Assembly (NCBI RefSeq): GCF_000701365.1
Contig: NZ_JNIK01000004.1
Coordinates: 1-64,000 of the forward strand
Reading direction: 5' to 3'
Origin: Blastococcus sp. URHD0036
Lineage (GTDB): Bacteria > Actinomycetota > Actinomycetes > Mycobacteriales > Geodermatophilaceae
Length of the DNA: 64,000 bases
In this document: one piece after another, positions 55,125 to 64,000 of the stretch
Position numbering within the stretch: the first letter of the stretch is position 1
Layout: each line of letters begins with the position of its first letter
Position numbers and translations under genes: made by a program
Notes under the pieces: generated by a model
Databases searched by the model: none
What the model saw: the letters and a program-made list of their open reading frames with translations, nothing else
What the model was told of the DNA's origin: nothing

Positions 55125-55691
55125 GTGACAAGGACGACGGGGCAGCTGCGGAGCGAGCTGGTGCGGGCCGGCGCCGTCCTGCTGGAGCGGACCGGCGCGG
55201 AGGAGGCGGTCACGCTGCGGGCCGTGGCGCGCGAGGCCGGGGTCAGCGCGCCGGCCGTCTACGGGCACTTCGCCGACCTGACGGCGCTCCTCGACGCGGT
55301 CGTCGCCGAGGGGTTCGACGAGCTGCGGGCGCGGATCCTCGCGGCCGTCGAGCCGCTCGCCGATCCGGTCGACCGGCTGGTGGCCGGGTGCCGGGCCTAC
55401 GTCGAGGCCGGCCTGGTGGCACCGGTGCGCTACCGGGCGATGTTCGGCGGGCGCCGCGGCTCCGGCGGGGAGGCCTTCGCCGTCCTCGTCGACGGCGTCT
55501 CCGCCTGCGTGACCGCCGGCCGCTCCGGCAGCGAGGACCCTGCGGCGGACGCCGCGCTGCTGTGGACCGCCCTGCACGGCGTGGTCACGCTCCGCGTCAC
55601 CGGCGCGGATCCCTCCTGGCCGGACCAGGACACCCTCGTGCGGACGCTCGTCGGGCGCCTCGCACGGATCAGGGGCGACGACCCCGCTTGA
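55125..55691 (+). CDS. TetR/AcrR family regulator
   Basis: A 188-residue repressor. The N-terminal helix-turn-helix domain (residues about 8-55) includes AVTLRAVAREAGVSAPAVYGHFADLTALL; the C-terminal helical ligand domain resembles the TetR_C_13/WHG type. GTG 55125 is 8 nt after the double operator, so it should repress itself and the divergent monooxygenase-like gene. It overlaps the facing GGDEF gene by 23 nt. Confidence 0.93.
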   Translation: MTRTTGQLRSELVRAGAVLLERTGAEEAVTLRAVAREAGVSAPAVYGHFADLTALLDAVVAEGFDELRARILAAVEPLADPVDRLVAGCRAYVEAGLVAPVRYRAMFGGRRGSGGEAFAVLVDGVSACVTAGRSGSEDPAADAALLWTALHGVVTLRVTGADPSWPDQDTLVRTLVGRLARIRGDDPA

Positions 55692-57054
55692 CGGCGTACA
55701 TCGCCTCGTCGGCGCGGCGCAGGAGCGAGTCGGCGGTGTCGGCCGGCCGGCTGAGCGCGGTGCCGCAGCTCCCCCGCAGGCCGGCGCCGGTCGCGAGGGC
55801 GCTCTCGATCCGGGCGACGAGCTCGGCCGCGTCCCGGGCGGTGCCCATCCCGGGGCAGACGACGACGAACTCGTCGCCGCCCATCCGGCCGACCGTGTCG
55901 CTCGGGCGGACGACCGAGCGGAGGGCGTCGGCGGCGCGCAGCAGTGCGGCGTCCCCGGCGTCGTGCCCGGCGGTGTCGTTGATCGCCTTGAAGCCGTCGA
56001 GGTCGCAGTAGGCGACCACCGTGGGGGTCCGGTCCCGGCGCTGGACGCGCAGCGCCTGCTCCACCCGGTCGACCACGAGGGCCCGGTTGGGCAGGCCGGT
56101 CAGCGGGTCGTGCAGCGCTGCCTCGCGCAGCTTGGCCTCGAGCTCCCGCTGCTCGGTGATGTCCCTGATGGTGATGACCCCGCCGAGGACCGTGCCGTCG
56201 TCGTCGTGGATCGGCTCGGCGGTGGCCAGCGTGACGCGGCGGAGGCCTCCCGGCCGGCCGGCGACGAGTTCGACGTCGCGCACCTGCTCGCCCCGGACGG
56301 CGCGCTGCAGCGGTCCGGACCTCGGGTCGACCGGGGTGACCCCGTCGGCCAGGTAGAGGTCCTCGAACAGCGGGGCGTCGACCAGCCGGCCGCCTCCCCA
56401 GCGGTCGCCCGCCCAGTCGGCCACGATCCGGTTGACGCGGGTCGGGCGGCCCTCGGCGTCCGACGCGACGACACCCACCGACAGCGAGTCCAGGAGCGCG
56501 CGGTCGAAGGCGCGGGCCCGCGAGAGCTCGGCCGAGGCGGCCTCGGCGACCCGGGCGGCGCGGTACCGGTCGACGAGGGCCAGGGCGACCTCGGCCAGGT
56601 CGGCGAGCCGGTCCACCTGCTCGGGCGTCAGTTCGCGGACCTCGTCGTCCCACGTGCAGACCGTGCCGATGACGTCGCCGTCGGTGGTCCGCAGCGGCGC
56701 GCTGGCGAAGAAGCGCAGCCGGCCGATCCGGCCGTCGACGAAGGCGTTGCCGGCGTGGTCGGGATCGGCGCGGAGGTCGGCGCCCCAGAAGACGCCGGGG
56801 CGCACGGAGGTGCGGGCGCACAGCGAGTCCTCCTGCGACACCCGGCACGGCTCGGCACCCAGTCCGACCAGGGTCACCTGCTCCTCGTCGTCCAGGAGGT
56901 TCACGGCCGCGTGGGCGGCACCGGTCACCGCGGCGGCGAGCCGGAGCACCGCGTGCAGCTCGGCCTGTTCGGGCGCCTGCCCGCTGCCGAGCTCGCGCAG
57001 CGCGTCGCGCTGTACCTCGGATCGTGCGGTGAGCGGTCGCAGGGTGGCGGTCAC
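55669..57054 (-). CDS. GAF-PAS-GGDEF diguanylate cyclase
   Basis: A 461-residue signalling protein: GAF domain (about residues 30-165), PAS domain (about 175-300, ending GVITIRDITEQRELE) and GGDEF domain (about 305-460). The active site RMGGDEFVVVC is intact and the inhibitory I-site RxxD (RPSD) stands five residues before it, so cyclic di-GMP synthesis with product feedback is expected. No membrane span. Same layout as the next gene upstream. A perfect palindrome lies 72 bp before its GTG start. Confidence 0.93.
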   Translation of the reverse strand: MTATLRPLTARSEVQRDALRELGSGQAPEQAELHAVLRLAAAVTGAAHAAVNLLDDEEQVTLVGLGAEPCRVSQEDSLCARTSVRPGVFWGADLRADPDHAGNAFVDGRIGRLRFFASAPLRTTDGDVIGTVCTWDDEVRELTPEQVDRLADLAEVALALVDRYRAARVAEAASAELSRARAFDRALLDSLSVGVVASDAEGRPTRVNRIVADWAGDRWGGGRLVDAPLFEDLYLADGVTPVDPRSGPLQRAVRGEQVRDVELVAGRPGGLRRVTLATAEPIHDDDGTVLGGVITIRDITEQRELEAKLREAALHDPLTGLPNRALVVDRVEQALRVQRRDRTPTVVAYCDLDGFKAINDTAGHDAGDAALLRAADALRSVVRPSDTVGRMGGDEFVVVCPGMGTARDAAELVARIESALATGAGLRGSCGTALSRPADTADSLLRRADEAMYAVKRGRRP

Positions 57055-57151: not shown

Positions 57152-58570
57152 TCAGCGGGGAACGCGACGCTCGGCCTTGACCCGGTACATCGCCTCGTCG
57201 GCGCGGGCCAGCGCGGACTGCGGGGTGTCCGCGGGGGTGCTGAGCACCGCGCCGACGCTGATGCCGACCTCGAAGCGGGACCCGTCGGTCAGGACGAAGG
57301 GCTCGGCGAAGGAGGCGGTCACCCGCGCGGCGACCTCGTCGGCCGACGCCTCGTCGTGCAGGCCGGGGCAGAGCAGGACGAACTCGTCGCCGCCGATCCG
57401 GGCGACGGTGTCCCCGGGGCGGATCGCGCTCCGCAGCCGGCGGGCGGCCTTGCGCAGGACGATGTCGCCGGCGGCGTGCCCGGCGAGGTCGTTGACCGGC
57501 TTGAAGTCGTCGAGGTCGCAGTACAGGACGCTGAACGGCTCGGCGCTGCGGCCCGACCCGAGCAGGAGCGCCGACAGCCGGTCGATCAGCAGGCTGCGGT
57601 TGGGCAGTCCGGTCAGCGGGTCGTGCAGGGCCGCCGTCCGCAGCTCCTCCTCCAGGGCCCGGCGCTCGGTGACGTCGGCCATGGCGACGACGGCGCCGAG
57701 CAGGGTGCCGTCGTCGGCGTGGACGGGCTCTCCGGAGCACTCGACCAGGCGCAGCCGCCCGTCGGAGCCGGCGATGGCGATCGGCACGTCGGTGAGCCGG
57801 CCGTCGGCCAGCACCCGGAACAGCGGGATCTCCTCGGCCTCCAGCTCCCGGCCCGTCGTGGTCGCGAGGCGGAAGGCGCCGGCGACGTCGCGCATCGCGA
57901 CGTCCGGATCGGCGTCCAGGCCGTGCCAGGCGCGGCTGACCCGGTTGAAGAGGTTGACCCGGCCGGCGGCGTCGGCCGCCACGATCCCGACCGGCAGGGC
58001 CTCGAGCAGCGCGCCGGTGAAGGCATTCGAGGTGGCGAGCTCGGCGTGCGCGGCCTCCGCCTCCCGCCGGGCCTGCTCGCTGGCGGCGGCCAGCTCGGCC
58101 ATCTCGTCGGCCTGGCGGCGGCGCAGCAGCAGCGAGACGAGGACGTCGGCCAGGTCGGTCAGCCGGGCGGTCTCGTCGGGACGGAACGGGTGGGGCCGGT
58201 CGTCGAAGACGCAGAGGCTGCCGACCACCTGTCCGTCGAGGACCAGCGCGGCGCCGGCGTAGGCGCGGATGCGGGCCAGCCGCCCGTCCACCCACGGGTT
58301 GCCGGCGAACTCCGGGAGTCCCGAGAGGTCGTCGACGGCCGCCACGGCGGCGCCACCTCGGAGCAGCGTGGCGCAGAGGGAGCCGTCGAGGGGGCTCGCG
58401 CCGCCGGTGAACCCGTGCGCGCCCAGCTGCCGCTGCAGCTCGCCGTCGAAGAGGTTGACGGTGGCGCAGGCCAGGCCGGTGACGGCGGCGGCGACGCGCA
58501 CCACGCCGTCGAGATCCGAGTCGCCGGCCGCGTCGAGGACAGCCGTCGAGGTCCGAGCGCCTCGAGACAT
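57152..58570 (-). CDS. GAF-PAS-GGDEF diguanylate cyclase
   Basis: A 472-residue paralogue of the next gene downstream: GAF (about residues 20-155), a helical linker with RRRQADEMAELAAASEQARRE, PAS (about 185-310) and GGDEF (about 315-470). RIGGDEFVLLC and the I-site RPGD are intact. The ATG has GGGAGG seven nt upstream. A sigma-28-like promoter (CTCAAG, 15 bases, GCCGTTGC) stands 34-62 nt before the start, suggesting control with motility or development genes. Confidence 0.93.
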   Translation of the reverse strand: MSRGARTSTAVLDAAGDSDLDGVVRVAAAVTGLACATVNLFDGELQRQLGAHGFTGGASPLDGSLCATLLRGGAAVAAVDDLSGLPEFAGNPWVDGRLARIRAYAGAALVLDGQVVGSLCVFDDRPHPFRPDETARLTDLADVLVSLLLRRRQADEMAELAAASEQARREAEAAHAELATSNAFTGALLEALPVGIVAADAAGRVNLFNRVSRAWHGLDADPDVAMRDVAGAFRLATTTGRELEAEEIPLFRVLADGRLTDVPIAIAGSDGRLRLVECSGEPVHADDGTLLGAVVAMADVTERRALEEELRTAALHDPLTGLPNRSLLIDRLSALLLGSGRSAEPFSVLYCDLDDFKPVNDLAGHAAGDIVLRKAARRLRSAIRPGDTVARIGGDEFVLLCPGLHDEASADEVAARVTASFAEPFVLTDGSRFEVGISVGAVLSTPADTPQSALARADEAMYRVKAERRVPR

Positions 58571-60827: not shown

Positions 60828-63533
60828 CTATCGCGCTGAGCGCCGGGCGATCCGGGCGGCGAAGACGCCGGCCGCGTGGCCGTTGTCGATGTTGCTCACC
60901 ACGACTCCGGGCGTGGAGGAGTTGAGCATCGTCAGCAGCGCACCGAAGCCGCCGAAGGAGCCGGGCTGGCCGGTGGAGGTCGGCACCGCGACCACCGGCA
61001 CGTCGGTCGTCGCGGCCACCAGGCCGGCGAGGGAGGCGTCGAGTCCGGCGACGACGACCAGGCAGTCGGCGTCGGCCAGCACCGACGGGTCGGGCAGGCC
61101 GCTGTGCATCCGGTTGCCGCCCAGATCGGCGACCCGGACGACGTCGGTGCCGGTGACCCGCGCGGCGAACGCGGCCTCCGCGGCCACCGCGGCGTCGCCG
61201 CCCCCGGCGGAGAGGACGACGACCCGGCCGACCGGCTCCGGGAGCGGGCCGACGGCGGCCGACATCGCGGCGGCGTCGACGGTGGTGTGCGGCTCGTGCT
61301 CGGTGGCCAGCGCGAGGAGGGTGTCCGCGGCGGCCCGCACGACCACCGCGGGACGGTCCGGATACGCCGCGCGCGCCTCGCGGACGAGGGCGAGCACCTG
61401 CTCGGTGCTGCGGCCGGGCGCCCAGACGACCTCGGGGTCGGGGACGCGTCCGCGGGCCGGCGCCGGGGGCAGCGTCGCGGGAGCGGCCGGGGGCGGACCG
61501 GCCAGCGGGACGTCCGCCGGCTGCGGCTCGAGCAGGAGCGGGGCGAACCCGTCGGAGACCCCGGTGGGCTCGTCCGGAGCCGGCTGGAGGGCGGCGGGCG
61601 GGACGGGGGTCTCCGCCGGGGCCTCCGCCCGCTGGGTGACCGCCGACAGCCGCACGACGCGGTCACGACCGCTGCGCTTGGCGTCGTAGAGCACGCCGTC
61701 GGCGGCGGCGAAGAGGGTGCGCCGGTCGTCGCCGCGGGCGGCCGAGGCGACGCCCACGCTGATGGTGACGGGCCGGTCGAGTCCGAGGGCGGCCCAGTCG
61801 TGGCCGGCCACGGCGCGCCGGATCCGCTCCAGGGCCCGCTCCGCCTGCTCGGCCGTCGTCTCGGGCAGCAGGACGACGAACTCGTCACCGGCCCAGCGGC
61901 ACACCTCGTCGGTGTCGCGGCAGCCGTCGATGAGCAGGTCGCCGACGATCCGCAGCACCGCGTCCCCGCCGGGGTGGCCGATCGCGTCGTTGATCGACTT
62001 GAACCGGTCGACGTCGATCACGGCGAGGGCCGGCATCGTGCCGGCCGCGATGAGCCCGTCCAGCCGGGCCTCGGCGTAGCGGCGGTTGGGCAGGTGGGTG
62101 AGCGGGTCCTCGTAGGCCTGCCGGCGCAGCTGACCGGCGGCGCGCTCGGTCTCCAGCAGGCTCTTGCGCCGTCCGAACAGCTCCACCCACCGGGTACGCC
62201 GCTCGTCGACGCGGTCGAGCTCGTCGGACAGGTAGGCCTGCAGGTACGGCAGCGCCCGCCCGGCGTCGTCCAGCTCGGCGTGCAGCGTGCAGAGCTCGCG
62301 CAGCGCCGCCCGGCGCAGCCGGGGGAGGCCGTGCTCGGTGGCCAGGGCCAGGGCCTTCGCCAGCTGCTCGTCGGCGTCCCGGCCGTCGCCCTGGCGGCGC
62401 AGCGCGCGGCCGAGCGCGAGGAGGGCGGCGGCCAGCACGGCCCGGTCGCCGATGGCGCTGGAGATCCGGACGGCGGCCCGCAGCGGACCGGCCGCGGCGG
62501 CGTGCTCGCCCAGGCCGACCAGCGCCCAGCCGTGCACCACCTGGGCGGCGACGACCGCGTTCCCGGCCTCGGGCGGGAGGAGCGCGAGCGCGTCCTCGGC
62601 CAGTTGGCGCGCCTCGGCGAAGTGCGGGGCCGCCGACTCGGGCACGCCGTCGTCGAGCAGTCCCTCACCGAGCTCCGCGCACAGCTCGCCCAGCCGGCTC
62701 GCCGCGCGGGCGACGAGGATGTCCGGGTCGCCGTCCTCGCTGCCGAGCAGCTCGGGGGCGGCCGCGGCGTCCAGCGCGGTCCGGTGTGCGCGGCGCTGGT
62801 AGTCCAGCGCCAGCGGCATGAGCTCGAGGTCGGCGAGGACGCCGGCCAGCGTGGCCAGGGTGTCGACCAGCAGCGCCGACGGCGGCAGCGCCGGGTCGAG
62901 CAGGCTGGCCGCCTCCACCGCCTCGTCCATCGCCGCGTCGATCCGCCGCGACAGCAGCTCGATGCGGGCGTGCCGGGCCAGCCCGGCGGCGCGCTGGAGG
63001 TCGTCGTCGGTCGCGTCGAAGGCGGCCTTGGCGGAGCGGACGAGGGCGATGGCCAGGGCCGCGCGCGAGGCGGGGTCGGACTGGCCCTCGCCGTCGGAGG
63101 GGTCGAGCAGCCCGGCGATGCCGGCGTGCAGGTCCAGCGGAGCGGCCGGCGGCTCGCCGGGCGGGGACTCGACGGGGTCGCCGACGAGGGTGAACCCCGC
63201 CATGCGCAGCCGGCGCACCAGCAGCTCGGCGCGCAGGGTGTCGGCCCAGGCGCGACCGAGGCTGGCGGCGGCCTCGGTGCCGGGCTCGTCGGGCGGTCCC
63301 GGGGGCGCCGCGTACGGCGAGGGGTCGCCCTCGAGGTCGGCGAGGAGTTCCTCGGCGTCGTCCAGCCGCCAGTCCGACAGGGCAGCGGTCACCCGGTGAT
63401 GCAGGGCTCCCGGTGGCACGAGCGCACTGTGCACGGCGTCGTCCTGGGAGTCACGCATCCGTCCGGGGGCGCGCCGAGCCGGATCGGGCGCGTCTCCCGT
63501 TTCGTCACAGGAGTCCCACGGGGACGCCGTCAT
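60828..63533 (-). CDS. TPR-like, GGDEF and LarB/PurE-like fusion protein
   Basis: A 901-residue soluble protein in one unbroken frame. Residues about 45-445 are helical TPR-like repeats. Residues about 470-630 are a GGDEF domain with intact RWAGDEFVVLLP (AGDEF 548-552) and an I-site RDTD (539-542). A Pro/Ala-rich linker (635-693) leads to a LarB-like domain: VPDPEVVWAPGRSTEQV (697-713), VVVLSAGGGDAAVAAEAAFAA, VVVAGLDASLAGLVAA, VPVVAVPTSTGQPGSFGG, ALLTMLNSS and SNIDNGHAAG. LarB carboxylates nicotinate mononucleotide for the nickel-pincer cofactor; its nucleophilic cysteine (MLNSC) is Ser872 or Ser873 here. No larC or larE is near. The ATG overlaps the upstream GGDEF gene (ATGA). Confidence 0.88.
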   Translation of the reverse strand: MTASPWDSCDETGDAPDPARRAPGRMRDSQDDAVHSALVPPGALHHRVTAALSDWRLDDAEELLADLEGDPSPYAAPPGPPDEPGTEAAASLGRAWADTLRAELLVRRLRMAGFTLVGDPVESPPGEPPAAPLDLHAGIAGLLDPSDGEGQSDPASRAALAIALVRSAKAAFDATDDDLQRAAGLARHARIELLSRRIDAAMDEAVEAASLLDPALPPSALLVDTLATLAGVLADLELMPLALDYQRRAHRTALDAAAAPELLGSEDGDPDILVARAASRLGELCAELGEGLLDDGVPESAAPHFAEARQLAEDALALLPPEAGNAVVAAQVVHGWALVGLGEHAAAAGPLRAAVRISSAIGDRAVLAAALLALGRALRRQGDGRDADEQLAKALALATEHGLPRLRRAALRELCTLHAELDDAGRALPYLQAYLSDELDRVDERRTRWVELFGRRKSLLETERAAGQLRRQAYEDPLTHLPNRRYAEARLDGLIAAGTMPALAVIDVDRFKSINDAIGHPGGDAVLRIVGDLLIDGCRDTDEVCRWAGDEFVVLLPETTAEQAERALERIRRAVAGHDWAALGLDRPVTISVGVASAARGDDRRTLFAAADGVLYDAKRSGRDRVVRLSAVTQRAEAPAETPVPPAALQPAPDEPTGVSDGFAPLLLEPQPADVPLAGPPPAAPATLPPAPARGRVPDPEVVWAPGRSTEQVLALVREARAAYPDRPAVVVRAAADTLLALATEHEPHTTVDAAAMSAAVGPLPEPVGRVVVLSAGGGDAAVAAEAAFAARVTGTDVVRVADLGGNRMHSGLPDPSVLADADCLVVVAGLDASLAGLVAATTDVPVVAVPTSTGQPGSFGGFGALLTMLNSSTPGVVVSNIDNGHAAGVFAARIARRSAR

Positions 63534-64000
63534 GCGGTCTCACCGCCGGCGGCACCGGGCGCGCGCACGCGGTTGCGTCCCCCGCGCTTGGCGCTGAACA
63601 GGTGGAGGTCGGCGGTGTCGAACAGCGAGCGCCACCCCGACGGCACCGCGGCCTGCTCGGGGTCGCGGGGCGGCGCGGTCGCGACACCGATGCTGACCGT
63701 GACCGGCTCGGGCAGCTGCAGGTCGCCCCAGTCGGCGTCGGCCACGGCCGCCCGCAGCCGCTCCATCGCCAGCAGCGCCTGGCTCTCGGTGGCCTCCGGC
63801 AGCACCACGAGGAACTCGTCGCCGGCCCACCGGTACACCTCGTCCCCGCCGCGGCAGTGCTCGCGCAGCAGGTCGGCCACCCGGCGCAGCACCTCGTCCC
63901 CGTGCGAGTGGGAGGTGTCGTCGTTGACCTCCTTGAAGCGGTCGACGTCCACCACGGCCAGCGACATCGGCGCCTCGCCCAGCGGCATGCTGCCCAGCCG
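63530..64000 (-). CDS. GGDEF diguanylate cyclase, partial (runs off the window)
   Basis: The last 156 residues of a protein that continues past the right edge. It is a GGDEF domain with RFKEVNDDTSHSHGDEVL, an I-site RGGD and intact RWAGDEFLVVLPE. It closely resembles the GGDEF part of the fusion protein that follows (EVCRWAGDEF versus EVYRWAGDEF), so the two arose by duplication. Its stop overlaps the start of the fusion gene. Whether it carries the same N-terminal repeats cannot be seen; it lacks the LarB-like tail. Confidence 0.92.
   Translation of the reverse strand, partial: RLGSMPLGEAPMSLAVVDVDRFKEVNDDTSHSHGDEVLRRVADLLREHCRGGDEVYRWAGDEFLVVLPEATESQALLAMERLRAAVADADWGDLQLPEPVTVSIGVATAPPRDPEQAAVPSGWRSLFDTADLHLFSAKRGGRNRVRAPGAAGGETA

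Follow-up and report, generated by a model that had tools for sequence, protein, structure and literature searches.

Gene architecture

The window analysed here is a stretch of 64,000 nucleotides (contig NZ_JNIK01000004.1, positions 1 to 64,000) from Blastococcus sp. URHD0036, a member of the Geodermatophilaceae, which are desert and stone bacteria. It contains a gene in which a diguanylate cyclase, the type of enzyme that forms cyclic di-GMP (c-di-GMP), is fused to a domain resembling LarB, an enzyme of nickel-pincer cofactor synthesis. A single frame with an ATG start codon (60828..63533, on the reverse strand like all features of the window given below) encodes 901 residues, and the joining of TPR-like repeats, a GGDEF domain and a LarB-like part in this one frame, which an earlier note on this DNA had proposed, was confirmed. 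Loci, genomes and genera are labelled L, G and g, respectively.

A full-length AlphaFold2 model was calculated from an alignment of 43 sequences with that of the window first (best of five models; mean predicted local distance difference test score (pLDDT) 80.4, predicted template modelling score (pTM) 0.53). In this model helices extend from residue 35 to 459, the GGDEF domain ends near residue 629 and a compact domain runs from about residue 700 to the C-terminus, with pLDDT values below 50 for residues 1–33, 452–471 and 633–696. The repeats (residues 135–420, 62274..63131, pLDDT mostly above 85) are best called TPR-like, as a regular helix array is predicted and the Pfam matches to TPR_MalT (residues 305–432, expectation value (E) 2e-9, 37.8 bits against a curated cut-off of 45) and TPR_12 (19 bits against 30) stay below their cut-offs. 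A long predicted helix (residues 424–459, 62157..62264, pLDDT below 50 from residue 452) leads from the repeats to the GGDEF domain. The 64 residues between cyclase and LarB-like domain (residues 633–696, 61446..61637) form a linker which is predicted to be disordered. Although this linker is also fast-evolving, it contains a conserved short motif, GF..LL (residues 662–667, 61533..61550; residues 662, 663, 666 and 667 kept in 42–43 of the 43 full-length sequences), which may be a further docking element.

The earlier note had described an intact GGDEF domain with an I-site. Domain (residues 473–625, 61659..62117; Pfam E 7e-37) and I-site (RDTD, residues 539–542, 61908..61919; RxxD in all 43 full-length sequences, that of the window included) are indeed present, whereas the A-site (residues 548–552, 61878..61892) reads AGDEF, not GGDEF. 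Of the A-site and the residues for metal and substrate binding, D507, F511, K512, N515, D516, D524, G549, D550 and E551 are invariant in the 43 full-length fusion sequences, F552 is replaced by tyrosine in three of them (AGDEF in 40, AGDEY in three) and the first glycine of the A-site is alanine in all. Judged from these residues, the cyclase is expected to be active and product-inhibited. According to a title cited in PMC5549716, the AGDEF cyclase VCA0965 makes c-di-GMP. An AGDEF motif is nevertheless no proof of activity, since in EcGReg the mutation of the first glycine to alanine abolished the in vivo function (excerpt of PMC5549716).

The LarB-like domain

The C-terminal domain (residues 697–901, 60831..61445) is matched by the NCBIfam equivalog model for LarB (NF033503) with residues 696–897 over profile positions 8–208 of 209 (E 4e-42), which is the complete domain that the earlier note had claimed. 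Its score of 144.3 bits does not reach the curated cut-off of 175 bits, which is narrowly exceeded by two relatives (G091, 177 bits; G094, 179 bits); the cut-off of Pfam AIRC (PF00731) is passed (residues 822–897, E 3e-10, 40 bits against 30). Modelled alone with AlphaFold2, the LarB part has a pLDDT of 83.8, and the 27 best Foldseek matches in the PDB are all LarB chains (TM score of the query, TMq, 0.77–0.84), followed by PurE. The match to LarB 8stc has a TM score of 0.84 over 206 columns at 36% identity. The assignment, which the earlier note had left to be judged by profile searches and by an overlay of a predicted structure on LarB, thus holds on both counts, and the predicted LarB fold includes the segment that precedes AIRC. 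An origin from PurE was rejected, as profile and fold match LarB far better; the genome of the window has a separate PurE-type gene (at C8).

Residues C221 and S127 are numbered after LarB of L. plantarum, counted from the alignment. C221, which we take to be the covalent nucleophile (the title of a 2021 publication by Rankin reportedly names a cysteinyl-pyridine intermediate in LarB), aligns with S873 of the fusion (codon 60915..60917) and S127 with G779 (codon 61197..61199). The fused domains of 159 loci, that of the window included, comprise 98 distinct ones, of which none has a cysteine at the place of C221 (alanine 77, serine 10, threonine 5, glycine 3, proline 2, gap 1) and none a serine at the place of S127 (glycine 51, alanine 44, others 3). 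The exchange of MLNSC for MLNSS, which the earlier note had pointed out, is therefore part of a more general loss, and by this alignment the MLNSS of the window is one among several end states of the lost cysteine. Canonical LarBs of the Geodermatophilaceae keep both residues in all 31 rows (30 different, the gene of the host genome being entered twice), and the stand-alone LarBs of other families keep the cysteine in 12 of 12 and the serine in 10 of 12. The two exceptions (L188 and L206) carry GTAD for GTSD with the cysteine kept and are natural counterparts of S127A, the variant named in the titles of the PDB entries 8soq, 8stc and 8std in the match list. That the glycine-rich loops and NIDNG remain, as had been noted earlier, is correct for NIDNG and only partly so for the loops (GTSD has become GGGD, and SVGY has become STGQ). 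In addition, G181 is alanine in 98 of 98 fused domains and the lysine of GAGK is replaced by arginine in 96 of 98. A further reduced form is seen at L192–L195, where 12 residues (18 and 4 at L195) are lost around the place of His158 of LarB and VDDG or LDDG replaces IDNG.

Conservation was compared between 43 canonical rows (42 different) and the 98 fused sequences at a threshold of 90%. Thirty-four columns are conserved alike, four are switched, 40 are conserved in canonical sequences alone and 56 in fused sequences alone. Loops hold 24 of the 40 canonical-only columns, among them GTS, GVAGxHR, SVGYGAxF, the cysteine and NIDNGF, whereas helices hold 32 of the 56 fused-only columns (including those at 710–721 and in the C-terminal AGVFAARIARR), with 14 in strands and 10 in loops. 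The helices conserved in this way are those of residues 710–721, 739–746, 785–793 and 888–898. A Fisher test on the loop columns gives p 3e-5, which is a guide only since the two sets differ in diversity. As read from these alignments, conservation has moved from loops to helices in the fused domain. The argument for a sensor in the earlier note, namely that the nucleotide loops remain, is hence half true, given the 24 relaxed loop columns.

Distribution, selection and lar genes

An alignment of fused domains (A1) finds 106 of 112 Geodermatophilaceae genomes at E 1e-63 or better in a genome search. The fused type itself is present in 101 and not in 106 of them, because G071–G075 (g7, g8) have stand-alone LarBs which pass the LarB cut-off. 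Genomes without the fused type belong to g6 (four) and to g7 and g8 (five), the others being G081, whose contig stops 454 bases past the match of the cyclase part, and G098, which is 72% complete. Both domains share one open frame at 43 of the 46 loci (that of the window included) whose DNA was read and spans both; contig ends truncate L040, L041 and L193. A chance frame, an assembly chimera or a fusion in one genome with a disrupted frame, the last of which the earlier note had named as a result that would speak against it, are rejected by these counts.

A scan of 84,980 species genomes with two peptide patterns, which finds close relatives only, yielded 106 relatives. The best 80 of these belong by title to Geodermatophilaceae genera, except for a metagenome-assembled genome titled Frankiales and Bacillus sp. 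AZ43. The latter record (L163, unverified organism) contains this Geodermatophilaceae gene and is probably a mislabelled or contaminated genome. In the order, 138 of 397 genomes matched, and among the matches listed the frames of other families reach up to about 600 residues; none of the 12 loci read outside the family has a GGDEF domain in the LarB frame. Among the matches listed from 396 genomes of the phylum, with that of the window as the only family member, none outside the family spans both domains. Among the matches listed and loci read in these samples of order and phylum there is no independent fusion elsewhere, which is not proof.

Canonical larB is found in 73 of the 112 family genomes. 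Of the 39 genomes without it, 38 have the fusion, and 28 of these also lack larC; LarE above its cut-off is absent in all 28. As these genomes keep the fused domain without larC, LarE and a second larB, it need not serve nickel-pincer synthesis, and the view that it no longer depends on this pathway is supported. The search for larC and larE that the earlier note had suggested also revealed that, in the 101 genomes with the fusion, larC lies at most 600 bp behind it in 47, at 0.6–8 kb in 15, elsewhere in 11 and nowhere in 28. No larC was found beside the fusion in the genome of the window. A diverged larC (E 1e-93 to 1e-108, as compared with 1e-118 to 1e-133 for most others) occurs at L040, L043, L071, G015 and G018; these five genomes have neither canonical larB nor LarE above the cut-off, and their orphan larC is possibly decaying or repurposed.

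Ratios of nonsynonymous to synonymous substitution rates (dN/dS) were obtained from Nei-Gojobori counts for pairs of full-length genes. In 15 of the 16 closest pairs dN/dS of the LarB part is 0.04–0.22, and in the same 16 pairs it is 0.00–0.18 for the GGDEF domain and 0.23–0.83 for the linker. Seven of the 16 pairs join genomes without any lar genes; six of them have LarB-part values of 0.08–0.15 and one (G021/G022) of 0.48. A larger set of 16 loci from lar-less genomes gives 120 pairs, 111 of which have a dS below 0.6. Here the linker ranges from 0.36 to 1.60, and the value of the LarB part is below that of the linker in 110 of the 111 pairs, as counted by eye. In distant pairs dS levels off near 0.4–0.6 and looks saturated, so that their ratios are probably too high. 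The LarB part is under purifying selection (dN/dS <1).

Origin of the fusion

Upstream of the fusion lies a tandem TPR-GGDEF paralogue of 561 residues (GGDEF E 8e-30), the 3′ part of which occupies 63530..64000 and which runs past the window (L004, 13531–15216). Its stop codon and the start codon of the fusion overlap (ATGA, 63530..63533), which suggests translational coupling of both genes. The order of a divergent pheA, this paralogue and the fusion is found at 46 of 48 loci, L040 and L041 being cut by contig ends. At nine loci outside the family, tested for both neighbours (L199, L201 and L206 were left out of the pheA test), larC follows larB in all nine. A pheA in divergent orientation is no farther than 0.7 kb away in five of them and no farther than 4.4 kb away in two, and two show none; at L190 the matches of pheA and larB are 130 bases apart. 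Overall, larC is near larB at 11 of 12 outside-family loci. Within the family, L029 (genus g8) likewise has pheA next to larB-larC with no cyclase between.

In a tree, 18 fused domains form one clade (Shimodaira-Hasegawa-like approximate likelihood ratio test (SH-aLRT) 100) with a stem of 1.11 changes per site and end branches of 0.05–0.38. The LarBs nearest on the other side of the tree come from g7, g8 and other families, and several of these are linked to pheA. As the tree comes from a quick search and its forks near the attachment point are open, the origin rests on synteny first. Since related families have pheA beside larB-larC where two TPR-GGDEF genes intervene in the Geodermatophilaceae, the fused domain probably descends, by synteny and tree, from the natively inherited larB of an ancestral pheA and larB-larC locus. 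A recent horizontal gain is unlikely given the fixed synteny on the pheA side and the single clade. In the simplest history, a pair of cyclase genes would have become placed between pheA and larB, its second member would have fused to the neighbouring larB, and a burst of change would then have removed LarB catalysis, the product being held afterwards.

A forerunner of the TPR-GGDEF part was sought at E 1e-30 in 58 genomes (48 of other families, nine of basal family genera, and G081). Distant matches only (35–49% identity, E 1e-31 to 1e-37) were obtained in seven of the 48 genomes of other families, and none in the nine genomes of basal family genera. The stand-alone larBs of the family (L007–L036) belong to several lineages of the tree, namely a group with the gene of the host genome, a mostly larE-adjacent group, that of g6, and those of g7 and g8 beside larC. 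At about 2.4 kb from the fusion, and separated from it by GDT1 and MFS genes, the window holds two tandem GAF-PAS-GGDEF genes (55669..57054 and 57155..58471); with the fusion and its paralogue, four GGDEF genes are located within about 10 kb.

Possible role of the fused domain

A canonical LarB function of the fused domain is rejected on residues (C221, S127) and on gene content. With a probability of roughly 0.5 we read the domain, from its sequence, as a captured LarB pseudoenzyme that serves a c-di-GMP synthase as a module for assembly or regulation. This reading is suggested because the chemistry is lost, the fold is kept, helices are newly constrained, the tether is long and disordered, and GGDEF cyclases must pair to act. 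The LarB part would be a C-terminal pseudoenzyme module on a flexible tether of 64 residues, whose LarB/PurE-type oligomer surface would pair the GGDEF domains or dock the cyclase to a partner and so set the c-di-GMP output. The TPR-like repeats might receive a protein-borne signal, and the I-site would give product inhibition. All of this, from the activity of the cyclase to its oligomerisation, its partner and the signal, is what we infer here; by analogy to PurE, of which the entries 3opq and 3oow are titled octameric in the Foldseek match list, the fused domain may also form a large oligomer.

Several observations weigh against this. Diversity is lower in the fused than in the canonical set, by which the fused-only conservation is inflated. 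The G021/G022 pair, both lar-less, has the LarB-part dN/dS of 0.48 given above, the 111 lar-less pairs range from 0.08 to 0.58 for the LarB part as compared with 0.01 to 0.53 for the GGDEF domain, and in general the cyclase is under the stronger selection of the two parts in most pairs. S127 alone is not diagnostic, with alanine beside a kept cysteine in two of 12 outside-family LarBs, and is a weaker mark than the cysteine because only 10 of the 12 have the serine. Furthermore, D128 (96 of 98), PTS (98 of 98) and the aspartate of NIDNG (D229, 97 of 98) are kept in the fused domains, which seems to exceed what a pure scaffold needs, and the domain is shortened by at least 12 residues in G005, G019, G020 and G108. 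Three of the 46 frames are broken (an in-frame TAG at L048, linker frameshifts at L051 and L059, with no unread bases there), and L199, one of the 12 outside-family loci, shows no larC nearby.

The conserved PTS and aspartates leave room for a ligand, and a sensor is the less probable though still serious alternative, in which the dead pocket would bind nicotinic acid adenine dinucleotide (NaAD), nicotinamide adenine dinucleotide (NAD), nicotinic acid mononucleotide (NaMN), adenosine monophosphate (AMP) or a related metabolite whose occupancy switches the cyclase. LarB structures with a ligand of the adenosine monophosphate type and with NAD exist, by the titles of 7mj0 and 7mj1, the whole domain is present in its predicted fold, and the arginine at the GAGK place retains a basic residue. 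However, the places of H158/R159, Y204 and V202 and part of NIDNG are relaxed, the H158 segment is deleted in four genomes, and the disordered linker makes rigid allostery less likely. The earlier proposal of a sensor or scaffold fits the lost catalytic residues and the dN/dS values well below 1, and its nucleotide sensor goes beyond these data. It is rather doubtful that the dead pocket reads a metabolite of the NaAD/NAD class, by which c-di-GMP signalling of the Geodermatophilaceae would directly report NAD metabolism. If true, an entire cofactor-synthesis enzyme would have been recruited as the receptor of an enzyme that makes a second messenger.

The remaining explanations appear considerably less probable. 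A new enzyme, with another reaction that does without Cys221 and Ser127 such as nucleotide hydrolysis or a PurE-like one, could draw on D128 and D229, yet the varied replacements of C221 (A, S, T, G, P) and the small share of loops among the fused-only columns make it improbable. To the same slight degree the LarB part might be a relic, the harmless leftover tail of the fusion. Its lost catalytic residues, the trimming in few lineages, the three broken frames and the G021/G022 value would fit this; dN/dS in 15 of the 16 closest pairs as compared with that of the linker, the lower value than the linker in nearly all lar-less pairs, and the retention in 101 of 112 genomes, including the 28 that have neither larC nor canonical larB nor LarE, argue against it. 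Least probable, and hardly to be expected, is that the domain still contributes to nickel-pincer synthesis, perhaps as a binding partner of LarC or as a source of pyridinium-3,5-biscarboxylic acid mononucleotide (P2CMN). The larC that closely follows the fusion in 47 of the 101 genomes, mostly the only larC found, is in its favour, whereas the equivalents of C221 and S127 are lost in 98 of 98 domains, the same 28 genomes do without the pathway genes, and the genome of the window has a larA-larE-larB-larC cluster elsewhere.

With the pseudoenzyme module as the preferred reading, the fusion looks like a clear natural example of an enzyme gene that was joined to a signalling gene, gave up its catalytic residues and has since been retained for another task; related families still show what the ancestral arrangement was. 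LarB would have a branch of pseudoenzymes, altered by nature at the very position that is exchanged in the laboratory variant S127A, and c-di-GMP signalling would have a kind of module undescribed in the searched literature, as judged from the search records. By the same records, no account of a LarB-cyclase fusion was found; matches for LarB together with GGDEF or diguanylate cyclase were mostly from Pseudomonas or unrelated, the meaning of "LarB" there not being checked. A LarB match in a Geodermatophilaceae genome need not mean a nickel-pincer pathway. As excerpted from PMC9686282, Blastococcus comprises motile rods and/or non-motile cocci tending to aggregate and has annotated flagellar and tad genes, and Trujillonella is non-motile and aggregating; GGDEF and c-di-GMP do not occur in the main text of that paper. 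That the cyclase of the fusion controls aggregation or motility is speculation.

Comparison with known systems

PurE, or AIR carboxylase (PF00731), has a related fold, but its match is far weaker than that of LarB (TMq 0.40–0.51). The larA-larE-larB-larC cluster on another contig of the genome of the window (L005, 6406–10407) contains a larB paralogue with MLNSC and GTSD, which stands alone and branches away from the fused clade in the tree. LarB itself (pyridinium-3,5-biscarboxylic acid mononucleotide synthase, which forms P2CMN out of NaAD and CO2; 7mj0, 7mj1, 8soq, 8stc) is homologous over the whole domain, and its VPTS, D128 and NIDNG aspartate are kept in the fusion. In contrast, LarB stands alone with an N-terminal DLGFAR segment, whereas the fused domain sits behind a cyclase without this segment, has C221 and S127 replaced and, in the genome of the window, remains below the NCBIfam LarB cut-off. 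By the search records, the searched literature describes no GGDEF cyclase that carries a domain of the LarB or AIRC type, and in this the fusion differs. The fusion nevertheless resembles GGDEF cyclases with N-terminal input domains, and VCA0965, in that it likewise keeps the residues of active site and I-site.

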